NCBI RefSeq assembly: GCF_022637455.1
Contig: NZ_CP093341.1
Span: 558,001 to 622,000, forward strand
Reading direction: 5' to 3'
Length of the DNA stretch: 64,000 nucleotides
DNA from: Lysobacter sp. S4-A87
GTDB taxonomy: Bacteria; Pseudomonadota; Gammaproteobacteria; Xanthomonadales; Xanthomonadaceae
Shown here: positions 3,550 through 21,443 of the stretch, piece by piece
Layout: each line of letters begins with the position of its first letter
Position numbering within the stretch: position 1 is the first letter of the stretch
The notes under the pieces: model-generated
What the model was told of the DNA's origin: nothing
Database searches by the model: none
What the model saw: the letters and a program-made list of their open reading frames with translations, nothing else
Made by a program: the position numbers and the translations under genes

Positions 3550-4998
3550 ATGACCACGCAGATCACGATGTCTCCGTACTACGGCACTCCCGACTTCTCG
3601 CCGCTCACGTCGCAGGCGACGACCGCCCCCGTCGACCTGGTCTCGGTCGCGGACCTGCTCCGCAATGCCTTCGTGTACCCCCCGTTCTCGATCCTGCAGG
3701 GCGTGCGCCTGGTGACGTTCGGCTTCTGTCCGCGCGACGACATGCACCAAGCACCGGAGTTCCGTTTCAAGTTCCGCAATGCCGGTGAAGTCCCCGAGGT
3801 GGCCAGCTCCGAGCAGGACTGGGTCGCCGGCTACCATCGCCTGCTGTGCGATTCGATCCGCCGCAGCTGCGCCGGCATGCACGCCCCCTGGCTGCTGCAA
3901 AGCGGCGGCAAGGATTCGACGACGCTGGCCATCGCCATCGCCGAGGCCCGGCCCGACACGACCTGCATCACCTACCTGGGTGGCCGCGAGGAGAACGAAG
4001 TGGATTCGGCCGCGAAGGTCGCGCGTACGCTCGGCCTTCGCCACGAGACGCTGGTGTGCGACCCGGGCCGCGCCTACGACCGCTACCTCGCGGTGGTCGA
4101 CCGGATGCCGCTGTTGACCGCCGACTTCGCACTGCTGTCCTGCGTCGACCTGGGCACGGAAGTGGCGGCCACGGGCGGCGACGGGATCATTGATGGGCTC
4201 GGCGCCGACAGCTACTTCGGTACCCCGATGAGTCGACGCCAGCACCTGCTGGCGCGGCTCGCCCAGGATATCAACCTTTCGCCGCGGATTGCCGAACTGC
4301 CATTGGTCGACCGCAGCTTCCGGCTCTGCTATCTGCTCAGCACCCTGCAGATGAACCCCATCGAACGCGTCTTCCCGGGGTCGCGCTTCAGCGACGAAGA
4401 AGTCGACGAGCTGTTCGGAAGGAAGATCGCCACGCATTCGCGACAGCGCCTGGAGCTGTTCCTGGACGAAATCGGCTCGGCCACCACACCGGCCGAATGG
4501 CGCGACATGTCGACATCGATCGCCGGCTCGGCCGGTGCCTTCGCCAAGGGCCTGTACACCGCCAGCGCGCTATCGCTGCAGGCGGCGTATCCGTTCTGCG
4601 ACCTGACACTTCGGGAGTGGATCCACCGCGAGGTCCCGCGTTACGAAAAGGTCGATCCGAAGACGCAGATGAACAAGCTGCTGATCCGGCAGCACATCGC
4701 CACGCGTTTTGGTGACCTGCCCTACGTCCAGAGCAAGGGCAGCTTCCGTTTCGACCTGCGTGGTCTGGCACAGCAACGATTCGACCATGTCCTCGACCTT
4801 GCACGGCGATCGAGCGACCTGCTCCCCGGCGCCGGCACCTGGCTGGAACGCAATCGACAGCGCCTGGACAACAAGTACCATGCGTCCAAGTTCTATCTGC
4901 TGGCGATCGTGCTGCCCTGGCTGGAATCGCGGCGGCAGGCGGCGTTGCAAAGTGTTGACGGCATTCACCCGGGCGTAGCCAATGTCGCACAGCACTGA
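3550..4998 (+). CDS. Asparagine-synthase-like PP-loop ATPase without amidotransferase domain
   Basis: 482 residues. The PP-loop SGGKDST lies at about residues 118-124, followed by TYLGGREENEVDSAAKVA, typical of the synthetase half of asparagine synthase. The N-terminal 110 residues are not a class II glutamine amidotransferase: there is no Cys at position 2. It probably adenylates a carboxylate and transfers an amine from another source. Within an EPS operon this suggests amidation of a uronic acid or modification of a sugar (inference). Start chosen at ATG 3550, with GAGGTGA upstream overlapping the wzc stop; the ORF extends further upstream but those codons overlap wzc. The stop overlaps the next gene by 17 bases, indicating an operon. 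Confidence 0.85.
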   Translation: MTTQITMSPYYGTPDFSPLTSQATTAPVDLVSVADLLRNAFVYPPFSILQGVRLVTFGFCPRDDMHQAPEFRFKFRNAGEVPEVASSEQDWVAGYHRLLCDSIRRSCAGMHAPWLLQSGGKDSTTLAIAIAEARPDTTCITYLGGREENEVDSAAKVARTLGLRHETLVCDPGRAYDRYLAVVDRMPLLTADFALLSCVDLGTEVAATGGDGIIDGLGADSYFGTPMSRRQHLLARLAQDINLSPRIAELPLVDRSFRLCYLLSTLQMNPIERVFPGSRFSDEEVDELFGRKIATHSRQRLELFLDEIGSATTPAEWRDMSTSIAGSAGAFAKGLYTASALSLQAAYPFCDLTLREWIHREVPRYEKVDPKTQMNKLLIRQHIATRFGDLPYVQSKGSFRFDLRGLAQQRFDHVLDLARRSSDLLPGAGTWLERNRQRLDNKYHASKFYLLAIVLPWLESRRQAALQSVDGIHPGVANVAQH

Positions 4999-6085
4999 TC
5001 CCGACCACGGCCGCAGGGCGCTGCTGCGAGGCTGCGTACTGTCGGTGCTGTTCGTTCCCTTCGCCACCCTGGCGGTGGACATCGCGGCGCGAGGACGTGG
5101 CCCGACCCGCATCGACGTACGTGCCCGGGGTGCGTCCGGCGACGGCAGCCAGGACGACACGGCAGCGTTCCAGTCCGCGATCGATGCACTGCCCGCAGCC
5201 GGCGGAACGGTGCATGTGCCTGCGGGCGACTACCTGATCGACCCGGTGCGCAGTGTGCGGTTACGCTCCAGCATGCATCTGGAACTGGCGCCAGGTGCGC
5301 GCCTGCTGGCCAGGGCCAACGCCGCCGATCGCGCTTACGTGCTGACCGTCCAGGGCGTCAACGATGTGGAGATCTCCGGCGGCCGCATCATCGGCGAGCG
5401 CGACGCCCATCTTGGAACCACCGGCGAATGGGGCCACGGGATCATGATCCGCGGTGCCTCCGCAGTGACCGTTCGCGACGTGCACGTCTCGCATTGCTGG
5501 GGCGACGGCATCTCTATCGGCGGCTTGAAGTCCGCAGGCACCGTGACCCCCAGCCGTGATGTCGTGATCGCACGGGTGCAGTGCGTCGGCAACCGGCGCC
5601 AGGGCCTCACCATCGGTCGCTCCCGTCAGGTCCGGGTCCACGACTCCAGCTTCACCGACACGGGCGGCACGCTCCCCGGTTGTGGCATCGACATCGAGCC
5701 CGATGCCGGCGACATCGCCAGCGACGTGGTGATCGCCAACTGCCAGGTGATGCGGAACAAGGGCGCCGGCATCCAGTTGTTCAAGCGCGTGACGAACGTG
5801 ACCATCCGCGACTGCACGATCGAAGGCAATCGTGGCCACGGCGTGCTGGCGGTCGCGGCGGCCGATTGCCAGATCATGGGTAACCAGATCCAGCAGAACG
5901 GACTGGGCGGCATCGGCCTGCGCCCCGGAACGCAGGACGTGACGGTCAGCCGCAACGAGTTCGCCGACAACGGACCGGCCTACAGCACGAAGACGAAGGA
6001 GGCGTTGCCGCGCAACCGGCATGTCTCCGTCGCCGAGCGCACGCAATCGATCCGCGTCGACAGCGACAACCGCTACCGCAACTGA
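4982..6085 (+). CDS. Exported right-handed beta-helix protein, pectate-lyase-3-like (first of tandem pair)
   Basis: 367 residues. The N-terminus has a twin-arginine-like stretch (GRRALLRG) followed by a hydrophobic segment, so export is likely. The mature part begins with the Pectate_lyase_3 signature GDGSQDDTAAFQSAIDALP and GGTVHVPAGDYLI, then many parallel-beta-helix turns ([31 protein letters not shown], and repeats with N-x-G patterns). Such proteins inside EPS clusters usually cleave or trim the polymer, or act as an epimerase or hydrolase; which applies here cannot be read from sequence. It overlaps the asparagine-synthase-like gene and is paralogous to the next gene, strongest around the GTTGEWGH and [10 protein letters not shown] segments. 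Confidence 0.85.
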   Translation: MSHSTDPDHGRRALLRGCVLSVLFVPFATLAVDIAARGRGPTRIDVRARGASGDGSQDDTAAFQSAIDALPAAGGTVHVPAGDYLIDPVRSVRLRSSMHLELAPGARLLARANAADRAYVLTVQGVNDVEISGGRIIGERDAHLGTTGEWGHGIMIRGASAVTVRDVHVSHCWGDGISIGGLKSAGTVTPSRDVVIARVQCVGNRRQGLTIGRSRQVRVHDSSFTDTGGTLPGCGIDIEPDAGDIASDVVIANCQVMRNKGAGIQLFKRVTNVTIRDCTIEGNRGHGVLAVAAADCQIMGNQIQQNGLGGIGLRPGTQDVTVSRNEFADNGPAYSTKTKEALPRNRHVSVAERTQSIRVDSDNRYRN

Positions 6086-14252: not shown

Positions 14253-14550
14253 ACTGGCCGGCGGTCACACTTCTGTCGGGTTCCTGTTCGGCTCCGGTTG
14301 AACACACTGAATGCTCCTGCACCGCGCACCGCGGAAATCACACGACATGCGTCATCACGACATTACGATTCCACTGCGGTGCGCATGGATGGCGTCGTGA
14401 GCCTCGCTCCAGACGCGACAGCGTTGTGCACGCAGGCTTCCAATGCAGCACTGCGAACGAGTGATCGCCAGGTCTAGACCGGCACGTCCCGCCAAGGATG
14501 CGGGTCGAAAGCATCGACCGGATGCTTGCCAACGACGTGAGGGCCAGTCC

Positions 14551-15666
14551 TTGAACATCCAGTCATTGAGAAGCACCACCCGGAGATTCGCTTTGGCCAG
14601 TTCCATCGCAACCGTTGTGCTGGCAGCCAGTGGTTGTGTACCCGGACAGCAGATGAGCCGGCAATCGTCCGGCGCCATGCAGGTTGCCGGCGGTAGCGAC
14701 GTGCGCATGGTTCCGATCACCGCTGATCTGGTGGCACCTGCGCGGGCACGGGTGCAGGTACCGCAGGAGCTGCTGAACTATCGCACCGAGTCCTACAAGA
14801 TCCATCCCGGCGACACCATCCTGGTCACGGTCTGGGATCACCCGGAACTCACCAGCCCCGCCGGCAACCAGCAGCAGGCGGTCACCAATGGCCGACTGGT
14901 GCAGCCTGATGGCACGTTCTTCTATCCCTATGCCGGCAAGATCAACGTCACCGGCATGACCATCGAGGACCTGCGCAGCACGCTGGCCAGTCGCCTGGCA
15001 CAGTACCTGCGCAACCCCCAGCTCGACATCAACGTCGTCGGCTACGGCAGCCGCGTCGCCGTGCAGGGCGCGTTCGAGGACACGGCGCCACAAGAGGTCA
15101 CCACTGTTCCGTTGACGCTGTCGCAGGCGGTGGGCCGCGCCCGCATCAACGTCGAACAGGCCGACCTCGCCGGCTTCGTGCTCACCCGCGATGGCCGCGA
15201 CTATCCGCTTGACCTGGATGCGCTCAACCGCGACGGCAAGGTCGCACCCGACATCTACCTCAAGCCCGGCGACCGGTTGTTCCTGCCGTTCAATGATCGC
15301 AAGGAGGTCTATGTCGTCGGCGAAGTGCTGCGGCCGCAGGCGCTCACCTTCAAGACCACCGACATGACCCTGACCCAGGCACTGGGACGCACCGGCGGCC
15401 TCAATCCGGTCACGTCCAAGGGCGAGGCGGTCTACGTGATCCGCGGCATCGAGGAAATGTCGCAGACACCAGCCACGGTCTACCACCTCGATGCCCAGTC
15501 GCCAGCCGCGTTCGCACTGGGCGACCGTTTCTCGCTGCGCCCTGGCGACGTGGTCTGGGTTGGCCCGGCCGGTGTGACGCGCTGGAACCGCTTCCTGTCG
15601 CAGCTGCTTCCGCTCTCGGGCATCATCGCCAACGCCGCCGCGGCCGGGAACGACATCGGCAACTGA
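14551..15666 (+). CDS. Wza/GumB-type polysaccharide export lipoprotein
   Basis: 371 residues from a TTG start with GAGGG about ten bases upstream; the ORF is open further upstream, but this start gives a normal lipoprotein signal ending VVLAASGC, with lipidated Cys. The Poly_export domain follows (YKIHPGDTILVTVWDHPEL, then VQPDGTFFYPYAGKINVTG) and SLBB-type repeats (EVYVVGEVLRPQA, LTQALGRTGGL). It forms the outer-membrane pore through which the polymer leaves the cell, working with the Wzc-like protein. Unusually, it is separated from wzc by about 11 kb and by its own 298-base leader, in which no convincing feature was found. Confidence 0.92.
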   Translation: MNIQSLRSTTRRFALASSIATVVLAASGCVPGQQMSRQSSGAMQVAGGSDVRMVPITADLVAPARARVQVPQELLNYRTESYKIHPGDTILVTVWDHPELTSPAGNQQQAVTNGRLVQPDGTFFYPYAGKINVTGMTIEDLRSTLASRLAQYLRNPQLDINVVGYGSRVAVQGAFEDTAPQEVTTVPLTLSQAVGRARINVEQADLAGFVLTRDGRDYPLDLDALNRDGKVAPDIYLKPGDRLFLPFNDRKEVYVVGEVLRPQALTFKTTDMTLTQALGRTGGLNPVTSKGEAVYVIRGIEEMSQTPATVYHLDAQSPAAFALGDRFSLRPGDVVWVGPAGVTRWNRFLSQLLPLSGIIANAAAAGNDIGN

Positions 15667-15764: not shown

Positions 15765-16304
15765 TTACTTGGCAGGTGCACTACCAGGCGGGAACGTCGC
15801 GAACATCTTGTCGATGCCAGCCTGCACCAGGGTATTGCCCTTCTCGACCGAGCTGGGAACCGTCGCCGACGCGGTGCCACGCCACACGGCCTGCTTGGTC
15901 CTGGTGTCGAACATGTCGACGACCAGCGTGCCGACGTCATACGTGCGCACCGTCGTCGAGGCGCTGCCCATGCCCATGCCACCCCAACCCCATCCGCCCC
16001 AGGCGGGGCCGTTGTAGAAGGTATCGATACTTTGCTTCTGCGTCGTGGCGACATTGGCAACGAGCGCGACGTCGGCCGAAGCCTCATCGGCCTGGCGCCA
16101 GCCCAGCGCCTGCAATTTCGCGTCGACGGCCGACACGATGCGCTGCTGGATTAGCGGCGAGTTGGCCTCGGGCTTCTTCAGCCAGGCATAGCTGTGGTAG
16201 TTGCCGAACTGCGCGGCCGGATCGTGATCGGTCGTCACCGTCGGCGTGGTGGCGCAACCGGCCAGCACCGCCGCCAGCAGCATGCCCAGCGCTACTTGTC
16301 TCAT
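15765..16304 (-). CDS. DUF4136 lipoprotein
   Basis: 179 residues. Signal peptide with lipobox LAGC at residues 14-17. The rest matches the DUF4136 pattern: FGNYHSYAWLKK, SPLIQQRIVSAVDAKLQALGW, an internal Gly/Trp/Met-rich loop (GWGWGGMGMG), and DMFDTRTKQAVWRGTAS. Function of the family is unknown; it is an exported, lipid-anchored protein. Not evidently linked to the EPS or amyloid-like neighbours. Confidence 0.85.
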   Translation of the reverse strand: MRQVALGMLLAAVLAGCATTPTVTTDHDPAAQFGNYHSYAWLKKPEANSPLIQQRIVSAVDAKLQALGWRQADEASADVALVANVATTQKQSIDTFYNGPAWGGWGWGGMGMGSASTTVRTYDVGTLVVDMFDTRTKQAVWRGTASATVPSSVEKGNTLVQAGIDKMFATFPPGSAPAK

Positions 16305-16513: not shown

Positions 16514-18253
16514 TCAGAACGAGATCGGGACTCGGGCGGTGAAGGTCACGTCGGGAGTATCGCGGGTCACACCAACGCCCAGTGCGACGTTGAGCGAGAC
16601 CTTGTCGTTGAAGCGGTAGGTGCCGCCGAGCAGCATCGTGCCGAGGGTCACCCGCACCGAGCCCGGCGAATCCTTGCCGTTCTGCTCGGTCTTGCCGACC
16701 AGGCTGGTGTCGTAGCCCAGGCTGATCGATGCCTTTTCGTTCAACGCCAGGCCCATGCCGAGGTTGAATCCCCAGATGTCACCTGCTTTGACGTCGCCGA
16801 GGAATTCCTTGCCCGACAGCAGCACCGTGCGCGATACGTCGTGGCGCTCGAAGTTGTACAGGTAGCTGATGCTGCCGAAGAACACGACCGGATCGGACGG
16901 ATACAACCAGGTCACGCCCGGCTGCAGGGATTCAAAGCCTGTGCCCGTCGGCAGCTCCAGCGGCAACCCCGTGCCGGTGGCGTTGGAGACGCAGCGCGTC
17001 ACGCAGTCGGTGATGACTTCGAAGATGTCCTTGCCGGTACGACTCTTGTAGCGCAGCCAGCCGATGTAGAACGCCTTGTCGGGACCACCGCGGTTGAGCT
17101 GGTAGCGCGCGGTCGCTTCGAAGTCGCCCATGCCGCGACCGCTTGCGTTGAACACGTTGTCGACAGCAGTGCCGGTGAAGATCTCGCGGCTGACGGTGTC
17201 GGCATTGAGGTAGACGTACGGGACCTTGGCCTCGAGCTCGAATCGCCCGCCAAAGCCGTAGCGTCCGGTGATCGTGGCCACACCGGAGGTGGTCTTGACC
17301 TGGCGCACGTCGATCAGGCCGATCAGGATCGCCGGGATCACCGTGAAGCCGACCAGCGCAACACGGTCGTTGGCGGAATAGCCGTGCTGCAGCGACGGCT
17401 CCAGGATGAACTTGCCGGCCGGCGTGAGCACGCCCGGCTGGTCGAAGATCTGCGCCACTTCGGGCGGGCGCGACGAGCTCTCGGGGGCTTCGCCGACCGG
17501 CTTCTGCTGCTGCTGCGCCACTGGCTGTTGCGACTGCTGCTGCGGTTGCTGCTGTTGCTGGGGCTGTGCCTGCTGCGGTTGTTGCGCTTGCTGCTGGGCA
17601 ACCTGCGTCGGCGCCTGCTGCATCGGCACCGGCACGAACGTCTGCTGCGACAGCGAGGGCACCATCCGGCTCGGAGTCACGCCGGCACCGCGTTCGCCTT
17701 CCAGTCGTTCCTCGTCCAGGGCACGCTGCAGCTGCGCGACGCTTTGCTCCTGCTGCGCCAGCGACTGGCGAAGTTCGCCCAGGCGCTGGTTCTGCTGGGT
17801 GATCTCCCGCTGCAGGGCGTCGAGGCGCGATTCTGCCGCGGCCACGGCTTCAGGCGAAGCCGGAACGAAATTGGTCGGCGCTGGAGGGGCGGCAGCCGCA
17901 GGGGGCGAAGGCGCCCTGGCAGTCGTGACAGCTTGCGGGGCGGCAGCGGTCGCAGGGGGCGCGGCGACCACCGCCGGAGAGGGCGCGCGGGCCACTGGAG
18001 CTGCGGCAGGGGGTGCCTTGGCTGGCGCTGGGGCTGGAGTTGCAGCCGGAGCCGGCCCAAGCCTGGCAGCCGATGCGGCGGCGGCGGCCAATGCGGCCGT
18101 GGCTGATCTGGCGGCAGCCGCGTCATGCGCTGCAGGAGAGGTGCCGTCAGTACGGCCGGCCGGCTGGTCCTCGGCGCCGGCGACGCCTGCCATGCCCAGC
18201 AGCAGGCAGGGGGCGAGCATCAAGCGCTGGCGTGTGGGTGGCGTCCTTTTCAT
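16514..18253 (-). CDS. FapF-like outer-membrane beta-barrel with coiled-coil and Q-rich linker
   Basis: 579 residues. Sec signal at residues 1-27. An Ala/Pro-rich stretch spans about 40-130, a coiled coil about 135-185 (AAESRLDALQREI, then Gln/Leu heptads), and a Gln-rich stretch about 212-251. From about residue 270 to the end there are amphipathic beta strands with alternating hydrophobics, finishing in ISF (terminal Phe, an outer-membrane signature). FapF of Pseudomonas is a periplasmic coiled-coil domain joined to a beta-barrel that exports amyloid subunits; this protein has the same architecture and sits last in an operon with a C39-like peptidase, as FapF does. An alternative is a generic phenol/MetA-type transporter barrel. 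Assignment to Fap rests on architecture and context, not alignment. Confidence 0.7.
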   Translation of the reverse strand: MKRTPPTRQRLMLAPCLLLGMAGVAGAEDQPAGRTDGTSPAAHDAAAARSATAALAAAAASAARLGPAPAATPAPAPAKAPPAAAPVARAPSPAVVAAPPATAAAPQAVTTARAPSPPAAAAPPAPTNFVPASPEAVAAAESRLDALQREITQQNQRLGELRQSLAQQEQSVAQLQRALDEERLEGERGAGVTPSRMVPSLSQQTFVPVPMQQAPTQVAQQQAQQPQQAQPQQQQQPQQQSQQPVAQQQQKPVGEAPESSSRPPEVAQIFDQPGVLTPAGKFILEPSLQHGYSANDRVALVGFTVIPAILIGLIDVRQVKTTSGVATITGRYGFGGRFELEAKVPYVYLNADTVSREIFTGTAVDNVFNASGRGMGDFEATARYQLNRGGPDKAFYIGWLRYKSRTGKDIFEVITDCVTRCVSNATGTGLPLELPTGTGFESLQPGVTWLYPSDPVVFFGSISYLYNFERHDVSRTVLLSGKEFLGDVKAGDIWGFNLGMGLALNEKASISLGYDTSLVGKTEQNGKDSPGSVRVTLGTMLLGGTYRFNDKVSLNVALGVGVTRDTPDVTFTARVPISF

Positions 18254-18341
18254 GCGGCCTCCTGTGGGGGTCCTCGGATAGAACGCAGTCGGGGCGGTTT
18301 TCAGGGCGCCGGCATCAGGGCGGAGTCTCGGGGCGCCGATG

Positions 18342-18854
18342 TCACGGCGATGTCGCGGCCGCGACCGTTGCGTTCTGGAGGGCCTGCTGCAGGTTCAGGT
18401 CCTGGAACGCGCTCAGGGTGTCGACCCCGACATTGACCGTGGTCAGGGCACGGATGTCCTGGTCGTTGCGCGTGTTCTGGATCAGCAGACCATTGAAGGT
18501 GGTGGACGGCTCGACGGTATTGCCCTCGCCCACCTGGATCACCTGCCCCTGGTTGAAGCGGGCCAGTTCCTGGGCCTGGTCGGTGGTCATGTGGGTGATG
18601 TCGGGAATGTGCACCTGCGTCGACGACAGCAGCTCACCGTTGACGAACACCGCACGCTCGATCCCGAACGACAACGACATGCCGCTGGCAGTCTGGAAAC
18701 CGCCGCGCATGTCCTCCAGCAATGCCGGGTCCACGGGAACCCATTCGGCACCCAGCGGACGTTGTTCGGCTGCGTTGGCCGCGGTGGCGGCCATGCCGGC
18801 AATGACGGCGACTGCCATCAGGCCGGGTCTCAGAAGCGATGAAGGAGAGCGCAT
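18342..18854 (-). CDS. Small secreted protein with Sec signal and double-glycine DMRGG site (possible FapE/cargo)
   Basis: 170 residues. Start ATG 18854 with GAGGGGG upstream. Sec signal at 1-29 (ends ANAA). Residues 40-52 read PVDPALLEDMRGG: hydrophobic residues at -12, -7 and -4 followed by Gly-Gly, the pattern recognised by C39 leader peptidases. The remainder is hydrophilic with Asn/Gln/Thr-rich beta-prone segments, including GLLIQNTRNDQ. The gene lies just downstream of the C39-like peptidase gene and upstream of the barrel gene, the fapE position. Function unknown; a substrate or extracellular partner of the export system is inferred. Confidence 0.72.
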   Translation of the reverse strand: MRSPSSLLRPGLMAVAVIAGMAATAANAAEQRPLGAEWVPVDPALLEDMRGGFQTASGMSLSFGIERAVFVNGELLSSTQVHIPDITHMTTDQAQELARFNQGQVIQVGEGNTVEPSTTFNGLLIQNTRNDQDIRALTTVNVGVDTLSAFQDLNLQQALQNATVAAATSP

Positions 18855-18865
18855 GTCCCACCCCC

Positions 18866-19564
18866 TCAGATGTCGCCCGGCCGCTTGCGCGGCGTGACGA
18901 TGTTGTAAAGGCTGTCGCGTGCTATGCCGGCATCCAGCGGCGCCGGTGGCGCCGTGCGCCAGTCGCGGGCGAGATTGAAGCCGGCGATCTCGCGCCGGTT
19001 GTGGATCACGAACAGGATCTTGTTGTCCCACAGCTCTTCGAAGCGCGAGCGTGGCATTGCGCGCGTGCCGCGCGCGGGATCGCCAAGCAGGATGCGGCCA
19101 TTGCGCAACCCCTTGACCACTACGAAATGCTTGTAGCCGCGATCATTGAGCAGCACGATCGCCGGCAGCCCTTCCTGGAACAGTTTGTCCAGTGGCTGTT
19201 CGAAGCCATCGGCTTCGAATCCTCTCGACTTCAGGTAGCGGCGCATGTCCAGCAGCGAGAATCCGCGCTGCTTGATCTTTGCCTGGTCGCCGCTCTGGTA
19301 CATGTGCATGAACACCTCGGCCTCGGTGACCGGGATGCCGTACTGATAGGTCAGCAACGTCGCCGTCGCCGCCGATCCGCAACTGAAATCGTACTGTTGC
19401 GGCACCGTGGTCTGGAACCTCGCCTCTTTCAGGCTGACCACCTGCATGCGATAGGGTGCGCCATTGACGCGCACGTCCACCTTGCCGGCCTGGGCAAGGC
19501 CGGCGAAGAGGATCCAGACCGATGCCGCCAGCACTGCACGGCTTCGGATGTTGCGGACGCTCAT
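18866..19564 (-). CDS. C39-like cysteine peptidase, FapD-like, periplasmic
   Basis: 232 residues. Sec signal at 1-26. The C39 catalytic elements are intact: Gln57 in QQYDFSCGSAA (oxyanion), Cys62, His146 in YKHFVVVKG, and Asp162 in LLGDPARG. Unlike bacteriocin ABC transporters there is no membrane or ATPase domain, and the signal places the peptidase in the periplasm, as proposed for FapD. It starts by ATGA overlap with the preceding small gene, which carries a double-glycine site. Likely role: processing of the operon's secreted proteins (inference). Confidence 0.88.
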   Translation of the reverse strand: MSVRNIRSRAVLAASVWILFAGLAQAGKVDVRVNGAPYRMQVVSLKEARFQTTVPQQYDFSCGSAATATLLTYQYGIPVTEAEVFMHMYQSGDQAKIKQRGFSLLDMRRYLKSRGFEADGFEQPLDKLFQEGLPAIVLLNDRGYKHFVVVKGLRNGRILLGDPARGTRAMPRSRFEELWDNKILFVIHNRREIAGFNLARDWRTAPPAPLDAGIARDSLYNIVTPRKRPGDI

Positions 19565-19986
19565 GGAGTCGGGTCCGCGAACTGCACGTTCACGATCATT
19601 CCGTTCTGGATCAGCACATTCGCGCCGGTGTTCTGGATGACCGTGTTGATGCCGTTCGAATTGACGAACGAACCGCCACCCAGTGCGTTGTTGCCGGTGA
19701 CGACACGATTGGCGGTGTTGTCCTCCACTCTACCTTCCAGGAGGACATCGTTTTCGACGATGTCGGCGCCACCGCGCATGTCGGCGAGCGCTTCCACATC
19801 TATCGACTGGCCCATCGCGCTGTCCTGCAGTACCGGGGCATCGACGGGTTCAGCAGCGGGTGCGAATGCCAGCGGATCGCTGGTTTCGCTGTAGTTGGTA
19901 ACGTCCTGGGCAGCAACCGTGCCCAATGAGAACAGGCAGATCAGACCTGCTGTGCTTGCAAGAACGATGGAACGGGTCGGTCGCAC
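19561..19986 (-). CDS. Small secreted protein with Sec signal and double-glycine DMRGG site (candidate amyloid cargo)
   Basis: 141 residues from GTG 19986, chosen because AAGGAGA sits seven bases upstream and a clean Sec signal (ending VAAQ, residue 27) follows. Residues 61-73 read SIDVEALADMRGG, a double-glycine leader-like site 45 residues after the Sec cleavage site. The mature part is Asn/Gly-rich with short beta-prone repeats (NTANRVVTGNNALGGG, NSNGINTVIQNTGANVLIQ), recalling amyloid subunits. Its C-terminus aligns with that of the 436-residue Gly-rich protein encoded upstream. The stop overlaps the peptidase start. Confidence 0.75.
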   Translation of the reverse strand: MRPTRSIVLASTAGLICLFSLGTVAAQDVTNYSETSDPLAFAPAAEPVDAPVLQDSAMGQSIDVEALADMRGGADIVENDVLLEGRVEDNTANRVVTGNNALGGGSFVNSNGINTVIQNTGANVLIQNGMIVNVQFADPTP

Positions 19987-20132
19987 GGTCTTTCTCCTTT
20001 GCCATGCATCCCCGTCGCGCGCGTGGTTTCCCACCAGACCGAAGCTTCCTGCCGGCGCTTGCGGCGCCGACAGGAATTCCAGAATGCGCAAACGACGTAC
20101 CGCAGGGGTCTGCGGTACGTCGGGGGGAGCGC

Positions 20133-21443
20133 TTACGGGCCTACGGACAGGTTGGCCTGGACGGTCACACCCTGCTGGATCAGCGAGGAGAAACCGCTGT
20201 TCTGCGCAACCGTCATGATGCCGGCCGCCGACTGTCCAACGCTGGTCATGTTGCTGGACATGTTGAACGAACCTGCGTCATTGGCGACTGAGCCGCCAGC
20301 ACCACCGGCACCGCCGGTCGCACCGTTGCCGACGCCACCGTTGCCGGCACCACCGTTCCCGGTGCCACCGCCACCGCCTGCGCCGCCTGCGGCACCTGCC
20401 GCACCGACTGCGCCATCACCGGCAGTCGCCGAGCCATTGCTTGCGCTGGCATCGGCATCGCCGTTGGTGGCTGCGCCACCGCCGCCGCCGGAACCGGCAG
20501 AAGCAGTAACCGTGCCGCTCGCGCCGCCGTCACCGGCAGTTGCACCGGAGGTGCCCGTGCCTGCGCCGGAAGTTGCGGTCGAAGTGGAGGTCGAGCTCGA
20601 GGTCGAGCTCGGTGCGCCGCCAGCACCGCCCGCGCCGCCAGTGCCGCTACCGCCTGCACCGCCTGCGCCGCCAGTGTCGTCGCCGCGACCGCGAGCACCG
20701 CCGCCGTCGCCGCCGTCGTTGCCGCCGCCGCCACCACCGTTACCGCCGTCAGCACCACCGGCAAGCGAGCCGGAGCCTGCACCCGAACCGGAACCTGCCA
20801 GGCTGGCACCGCCAGCGTCGCCGCTGTCGTTGTCGGCATCGCCGCCACGACCACTGGTGTTATCCCAGGTGTCGCCGCCGCGGCCGCCACGGCCTGCCGT
20901 CGCATCGCCAATGACCGCGTCACCGGAAATTGCGCTGCCATTCTCGGCACTGCCGCCGCTGCCGCCGTCTCCGCCGTCGCCGCCGTTGCCGCCGTCTCCG
21001 CCGTTGCCGCCGTAGCCGTCGCCACCGTAGCCCTTGCCGCCGTAGCCATCACCACCGGCGCCGCCCTTGCCACCATTGGCGCTGCCATAGTTCTTGGCGG
21101 CGTTGCCGATGTCATGGTTATAGGTGTCATAGACCGAGCCTTCCAGCTTGGTCAGTGCGACGATGTGGCTGGAGGTCTTGGAGAAGGTGCTCGAATCGGT
21201 ATAGGTGTTGGTTGCGGTGCCACTGCTGGCGGCCGAGGCCGACCCTGCAGCTGCCCCGGAATCGCCGTTGTTTGCGGTGCTGCTATCGCTGTCGTTGTCC
21301 TGGCTGTTGTCGGTGGCAGTGATGTTGGCGAGGATGTCATCGCCGCCATTGCCATCACCGTTCGTCTGTTGTGCCCAGGCCTGGCTGGTAAGACCAAGGC
21401 CCAGGAGCACTGCCGTTGCCATCAAGCTGCTACGAATGCGCAT
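20133..21443 (-). CDS. Glycine-rich secreted low-complexity protein, first gene of Fap-like operon
   Basis: 436 residues, ATG with AAAGGAGA upstream and a Sec signal (residues 1-24, SQAWAQ). About residues 30-110 are Asp/Asn/Ser-rich and contain TKLEGSVYDTYNHD. About residues 110-385 are dominated by GG, GGDG and GGAGG repeats with Asp, Asn, Ser and Ala. The last 50 residues change character (SFNMSSNMTSVGQSAAGIM, then VAQNSGFSSLIQQGVTVQAN) and match the end of the 141-residue neighbour. Aromatics are almost absent from the central part. Probably an extracellular matrix or adhesin subunit exported by the operon. The reverse strand here gives long Pro/Arg-rich open frames that are artefacts. 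Confidence 0.82.
   Translation of the reverse strand: MRIRSSLMATAVLLGLGLTSQAWAQQTNGDGNGGDDILANITATDNSQDNDSDSSTANNGDSGAAAGSASAASSGTATNTYTDSSTFSKTSSHIVALTKLEGSVYDTYNHDIGNAAKNYGSANGGKGGAGGDGYGGKGYGGDGYGGNGGDGGNGGDGGDGGSGGSAENGSAISGDAVIGDATAGRGGRGGDTWDNTSGRGGDADNDSGDAGGASLAGSGSGAGSGSLAGGADGGNGGGGGGNDGGDGGGARGRGDDTGGAGGAGGSGTGGAGGAGGAPSSTSSSTSTSTATSGAGTGTSGATAGDGGASGTVTASAGSGGGGGAATNGDADASASNGSATAGDGAVGAAGAAGGAGGGGGTGNGGAGNGGVGNGATGGAGGAGGSVANDAGSFNMSSNMTSVGQSAAGIMTVAQNSGFSSLIQQGVTVQANLSVGP

Follow-up and report, generated by a model that had tools for sequence, protein, structure and literature searches.

The closest described relatives of the system discussed here are the Pseudomonas Fap operons (fapABCDEF). 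FapB and FapC contain three imperfect repeats each, and the FapA chaperone is missing from many known fap operons. C39 enzymes cut after a double glycine (GG), usually within ATP-binding cassette (ABC) transporters. FapD is a C39 peptidase located in the periplasm, and it is essential for amyloid secretion in Pseudomonas: the C38A change abolishes secretion, while the substrate and cut site have long been open (PMC5557850). Among the Fap proteins, FapE alone lacked its N-terminus in mass spectrometry, and processing of FapF at the junction of its coiled coil and barrel was proposed from GG/GA motifs (PMC5557850). According to the same 2017 paper, canonical C39 sequences are absent from Fap proteins (PMC5557850); a review from 2025 describes FapD as "thought to" process FapE and FapF (PMC12822426). 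Here we examine a five-gene operon, P0001 to P0005, in a 64,000-nucleotide stretch of Lysobacter sp. S4-A87 (the window), which a first-pass annotation read as a Fap-like operon with double-glycine sites behind Sec signals. That interpretation is supported overall: the DMRGG motif is conserved, the C39 protein matches FapD and the barrel protein matches FapF. We consider it probable that the operon encodes a Fap-related secretion system in which a periplasmic C39 peptidase, P0003, strips a second, double-glycine leader from proteins exported by Sec.

The operon and its double-glycine leaders

The five genes lie on the minus strand in the order P0001-P0002-P0003-P0004-P0005 and span 16514-21443, all of them present and co-oriented as annotated. 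The intergenic distances from P0001 to P0005, taken from the coordinates, are 146, -4, 11 and 88 bp, P0002 and P0003 overlapping by 4 bp. A scan for promoters and terminators gave nothing better than chance.

Two small Sec-exported proteins carry the leaders, as the annotation had noted. P0002 (19561..19986, 141 aa) starts at a GTG behind AAGGAG and contains the leader core SIDVEALADMRGG at residues 61-73 (19768..19806), with a proposed cut after Gly73. P0004 (18342..18854, 170 aa), a FapE-like protein, contains PVDPALLEDMRGG at residues 40-52 (18699..18737), with a proposed cut after Gly52. Both cores are as quoted in the annotation, and each follows an N-terminus that resembles a signal peptide (signal peptides were called throughout by a simple rule), with a basic, a hydrophobic and an A-x-A-like part; about 10-45 residues separate it from the leader. 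Judged by its residues, the motif belongs to the class-II (double-glycine) leaders, with a hydrophobic residue at -12, Leu at -7, usually a hydrophobic residue at -4, and GG. This geometry agrees position by position with the leaders of LahT and ComA. V(-4), L(-7) and L(-12) of the leader occupy hydrophobic pockets of LahT, and ComA requires L(-12), E(-8) and L(-7) (PMC6363468).

The motif is conserved among orthologues. RGG is invariant in 108/108 relatives of P0004; position -7 is Leu in 107 of them and Met in one, -12 is hydrophobic in all 108 (Ala counted), and -4 is hydrophobic in 91. A 49-row alignment of P0004 leaves R50, G51, G52, Q126 and N127 as the only invariant residues. Among 115 P0002 relatives, L(-7) is found in 105, G(-2) in 111 and G(-1) in 98; a second count on 110 relatives gave a hydrophobic residue at -12 in 107 and at -7 in 105, and G(-1) in 93. 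The classical geometry claimed by the annotation thus holds in both families, least strictly at -4 of P0002. In the AlphaFold2 model of P0004 (mean predicted local distance difference test score, pLDDT, of 77), residues 43-49 form a helix, the GG and the predicted cut fall in a disordered link at 51-54, and from about residue 58 the chain is folded, with a pLDDT above 90 in its core. Such a layout of helix, link and domain would be the look expected of a removable leader. Neither Foldseek nor VIA-align found a convincing match for the P0004 fold (best Z 3.3).

Leader and peptidase also travel together. Of 148 related genomes, 25 have the close C39 homologue, and P0004 is found in exactly these 25, a perfect co-occurrence of the C39 and the DMRGG protein. 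The full operon, gene order included, is retained in 20 relatives. Cupriavidus metallidurans CH34 (L267) carries the operon. A genome scan with the C39 alignment returned at least 564 relatives, of which the best 80 loci were inspected. These best 80 belong to Xanthomonadales and Burkholderiales, including Lysobacter, Pseudoxanthomonas, Luteimonas, Luteibacter, Dyella, Rhodanobacter, Burkholderia, Paraburkholderia, Cupriavidus, Variovorax, Massilia and others, and nearly all of them have P0002, the C39 gene and P0004, mostly with the barrel gene. At L160-L163, L176, L177, L198, L201 and other Burkholderiales loci the gene for the barrel is either on the opposite strand, as in many members of this order, or at a distance of some kb; it is therefore not always part of the operon.

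The peptidase, P0003 (18866..19564, 232 aa), has a Sec signal and matches Pfam Peptidase_C39 (E 3.4e-22). It is related to FapD, as had been suspected: the NCBIfam model NF058616 matches with E 1.1e-38, at 132.8 bits against a curated equivalog cut-off of 330, and the FilB model NF050078 with E 5.2e-38. Its fold resembles ComA, PCAT1 and the leader-bound LahT protease (6mpz). Cys62, His146 and Asp162 of the catalytic set named by the annotation are invariant in an alignment of 24 relatives; the oxyanion Gln, which had been placed at 57, is the equally invariant Q56. In a C39 tree, sequences of the window type (those from loci resembling P0001-P0005, as opposed to canonical fap loci) and FapD sequences stand apart, the support being weak (63/49 and 73/99). 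Class-specific C39 residues, when compared, gave candidate positions 97, 111, 118, 121, 161, 167 and 202 of P0003 and no clear pocket for the -1 residue.

P0005 (16514..18253, 579 aa) is a FapF-type outer-membrane barrel (residues 262-578) with an N-terminal coiled coil. Rather than grouping with unrelated porins, it matches the NCBIfam FapF model NF058560 (E 8.7e-44, with a score well below the curated equivalog cut-off) and the FapF structures 5o65, 5o67 and 5o68 in the PDB (5o67, E 4.1e-27). Between coiled coil and barrel it has a leader-like site, ALDEERLEGERGA (residues 178-190, 17684..17722), which is followed by G at residue 191 and is a proposed third cut site.

This site was scored with a 14-column position matrix, trained on relatives of P0002 and P0004 only and run on Sec-like open reading frames (ORFs). 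The control, which set a 1% threshold of 2.5 bits, was made up of 207 Sec-like ORFs taken from unrelated stretches of genome totalling 800 kb; 20 stretches of 20 kb of the strain's own genome also served as control. A loose regular expression for the leader, which matched about 11% of the control Sec-like ORFs, was dropped for the matrix. The P0005 site scores 14.6. Of 102 window-type barrels, 81 are above the 1% control threshold in the zone between coiled coil and barrel, and 72 outscore at least 98% of their own shuffles there; the residues at -2/-1 are mostly GA, GG, AG or GT. At locus L284, from another class, a FapF-like frame with PLAPDDLVTMRGRY stands beside a FapE with PIADEELGSIRGKF.

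P0001 (20133..21443, 436 aa) is secreted and rich in Gly, and its C-terminal part has a single Fap-like repeat, AGSFNMSSNMTSVGQSAAGIMTVAQNSGFSSLIQQGVTVQANLS; P0002 also has one such repeat. P0001, P0002 and P0004 match no Pfam or NCBIfam family. The tails of P0001 and P0002 were turned into a repeat profile (roughly sNti-gaF-naaGi-tV-QNsG-N-liQn---V-v). In hhalign this profile matches FapB at prob 93 (E 2.5e-7) and FapC at prob 83, and it also picks up ORFs in eight canonical fap loci. P0001 is likely to be a fibre subunit in the position of FapB/C. The Fap-like repeat (DNTIKDNAFQ..GITQVQQNNGSNNAMQQ..V) occurs four times in proteins at L113 (4733 and 8154) and L114 (5068), compared with once per protein in the window.

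Comparison with canonical Fap

A leader of the same kind occurs in canonical Fap. Twenty-five canonical fap loci were examined. In the aligned sequences from them, FapE has directly after its signal peptide V/I/L at -12, L/M at -7, M/I/L at -4, G at -2, R/K at -1 and an aromatic residue at +1. Across 24 aligned FapE proteins, -12 is hydrophobic in 24, -7 is L/M in 24 and -4 is hydrophobic in 23; R/K at -1 is also found in all 24, a count that is biased because the proteins were chosen by the pattern G[RK][FYW]. The leader site is present in 15/15 FapE proteins found by BLAST without the pattern, and the same site is seen in FapE frames that the NCBI model picks out in other members of the class. 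Proteins that exceed the equivalog cut-off of this model, which describes the Pseudomonas-type FapE, have ELKDSEMAELRGRY and ELKDAEMADLRGRF. When the matrix, from which all canonical loci had been held out, was run on the 25 fap loci, it flagged a Sec protein in 21 at the 1% control threshold, and in 18 of these the protein was FapE, at the leader. A search of plasmids for FapE gave a single weak Acidithiobacillus record.

These observations can be read to mean that Fap proteins do have a C39 sequence, with R/K at -1. The published requirement for the FapD cysteine and the missing N-terminus of FapE are consistent with cleavage of the FapE leader. P0004 itself matches the FapE profile only at the N-terminus (prob 94, E 1.2e-7; prob 77 and E 2e-5 with larger alignments), and the N-termini of the two proteins have in common the leader, the aromatic +1 and an FG at +11/+12. 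Five genomes carry the two operons together, the sites reading GG for P0002/P0004 and G[RK] for FapE, which suggests separate specificities.

The likeness of gene order and architecture to fapB/C-D-E-F, drawn by the annotation, stands in part. Homologues of D and F and a FapE-like N-terminus are present. By NCBIfam, FapA has no match among the five proteins, and neither does the three-repeat family of FapB/FapC, P0001 and P0002 having one related repeat each. With no FapA and no three-repeat FapB/FapC found, the operon is a sister system and not a canonical fap operon. The two systems share a C39 peptidase with a Sec signal, a coiled-coil barrel of the FapF type, the order subunits-D-E-F, a leader of P0004 that aligns with that of FapE, and a distant likeness of the repeats to FapB/FapC. 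They differ in the proposed cut site (GG here, G[R/K] in Fap), in P0002, which has no canonical counterpart, and in the missing FapA.

The distinct maturation route that the annotation proposed, Sec export followed by double-glycine cleavage, is not wholly new, as FapD is a periplasmic C39 whose cysteine is needed for secretion (PMC5557850); the substrate and site of FapD had, however, not been settled. In the literature searched, which covered few preprints and subscription papers, a search for a described Sec and double-glycine route led only to the Fap work.

Action of the peptidase and alternative explanations

The genes, the homologies, the conserved leader geometry, the co-occurrence and the switch at -1 can be read from the sequences. 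We infer that P0003 cleaves its partners and in what order, that P0001 and P0002 leave through P0005, and, on the basis of the repeat similarity, that the fibre is amyloid. Sec and signal peptidase would bring all five proteins to the periplasm. P0003 would recognise a helical leader by its hydrophobic positions -12, -7 and, in most cases, -4. It would cut after GG in P0002 and P0004, and it would probably also cut P0005, after GA, between coiled coil and barrel. Once cut, P0004 may have its folded part released from a leader used for docking, and the barrel may be opened or reset. Through the barrel, P0001 and P0002 with their repeats would then reach the surface as fibres, leader removal licensing the export. 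Canonical FapD may act likewise on FapE, and in some operons on FapF, at leaders with G-[R/K] at -2/-1; the -1 residue would therefore distinguish the substrates of P0003-type and FapD proteases.

The conservation of the leader would look identical if P0003 bound it for chaperoning or docking, with the helix and GG tethering P0002 and P0004 to P0003 or the barrel and cutting being secondary or absent. This would liken P0003 to the inactive C39-like domains that tether substrates in some type I exporters, and some C39 relatives are indeed chaperones rather than proteases (PMC6173800). It is improbable given that the residues Q56, Cys62, His146 and Asp162 have been kept without change, and that canonical Fap secretion needs the active-site Cys (PMC5557850). 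We regard it as similarly doubtful that RGG has a structural or sorting role in the N-terminal region shared by P0002, P0004 and FapE, for example as a barrel- or fibre-docking peptide, and that the C39 acts elsewhere. The motif does lie in a conserved stretch, and since P0004 and FapE both have the aromatic +1 and FG at +11/+12, more than a cut site is kept there; however, the same geometry is seen in unrelated proteins near standalone C39 genes (P0002, the barrel, FilA and small proteins with AG leaders), and it equals that of known C39 leaders at each position. Ordinary double-glycine peptides of an ABC-type C39 transporter use this class of leader, so P0002 and P0004 might be such peptides with N-termini misread as Sec-like. 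This is very unlikely: the N-termini have the three parts of a signal peptide with the leader well behind them, and the operon has a FapF barrel and no ABC exporter. P0003 is moreover the sole C39 domain of the Lysobacter sp. S4-A87 genome, and therefore no ABC-type C39 exporter is available for these leaders; the lack of a second C39 domain largely rules out the ABC-exporter reading.

Several points weigh against removal of the leaders by P0003. Cleavage is deduced from sequence. R/K at -1 is unusual for C39, and FapD might therefore cut one residue earlier or elsewhere. The match between the P0004 and FapE profiles is restricted to about 30-36 columns around the motif. In P0002 the hydrophobic residue at -4 is weaker (74/110), and GG is changed in some relatives. 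Canonical FapF exceeds the threshold in only 7/23 cases, some of them upstream of the real gene start. The conservation counts are not independent because the sequences are related.

If leader removal by P0003 is correct, Sec and the double-glycine leader, which are usually treated as alternatives, would be joined in one route, and the secretion of biofilm amyloid would have a defined point for study. The comparison yields an exact predicted site in FapE, of the type ELRGR with the cut before Y or F, which is a testable answer on what FapD cuts; in the widespread sister system, sites are likewise predicted for the FapE-like protein and for the barrel. It further gives a simple rule for locating substrates of other standalone C39 peptidases.

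Other standalone C39 loci and neighbouring genes

C39 proteases of ABC exporters (LahT, ComA, PCAT1) share with P0003 the catalytic residues, the fold and the -12/-7/-4/GG geometry of the leader; P0003, in contrast, is stand-alone and periplasmic, and its substrates are already past the inner membrane via Sec. The Acinetobacter Fil pilus system (FilA/FilB/FilC) has the C39 relative FilB and, behind the signal peptide of FilA, the leader SMDDAALSAATGQD, with M(-12), L(-7), A(-4), G(-2) and Q(-1). Fil differs in its subunits, its more distant barrel and the Gln at -1. Among 17 other standalone-C39 loci held out from the matrix, a Sec protein was flagged in 7 at the 1% control threshold. Inspection by eye, not scored blind, adds further cases in this group: four Sec proteins with LSDSALDNITAG-type leaders precede one C39 at L142 (about 3698-5480), three Sec proteins have such leaders at each of L123 and L125, and leaders of the LSDQEMKNTEGA or MNDAEMAETQGR type occur at L146 and L143.

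It seems somewhat likely that periplasmic C39 peptidases are a general Gram-negative class of maturation proteases for class-II leaders of Sec-exported proteins, found in Fap, Fap-like, Fil-like and small-peptide (AG-leader) operons, and that in some of these they also clip the FapF-type barrel. Each peptidase would be tuned to its own -1 residue (G, R/K, Q or A), and several such routes could therefore operate side by side in one cell.

At L142, L125, L123 and L130, one to four mostly short Sec proteins with AG leaders (for example LSDADMDGVTAG) stand directly before a standalone C39; they have the look of bacteriocin precursors, yet carry Sec signals. Small Sec proteins of 104-120 aa lie near the FapE/P0004 gene at L112 (7673), L113 (7409), L133, L136 and L139, in both fap and window-type loci. 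Several have a leader-like motif (APLSAQELGEVSGAG, PLSESHLAEVYGKG), and these proteins are possible further C39 substrates. On the mobilizable Acinetobacter plasmid pTR11_4 (6.3 kb, L269), a C39 with a Sec signal adjoins a Sec protein with ELSNQEMKDTQGAV. Downstream of the operon in the window, genes read from sequence encode a small lipoprotein (15765-16304, minus strand) and a polysaccharide-export (Wza-like) lipoprotein (14443-15666, plus strand).

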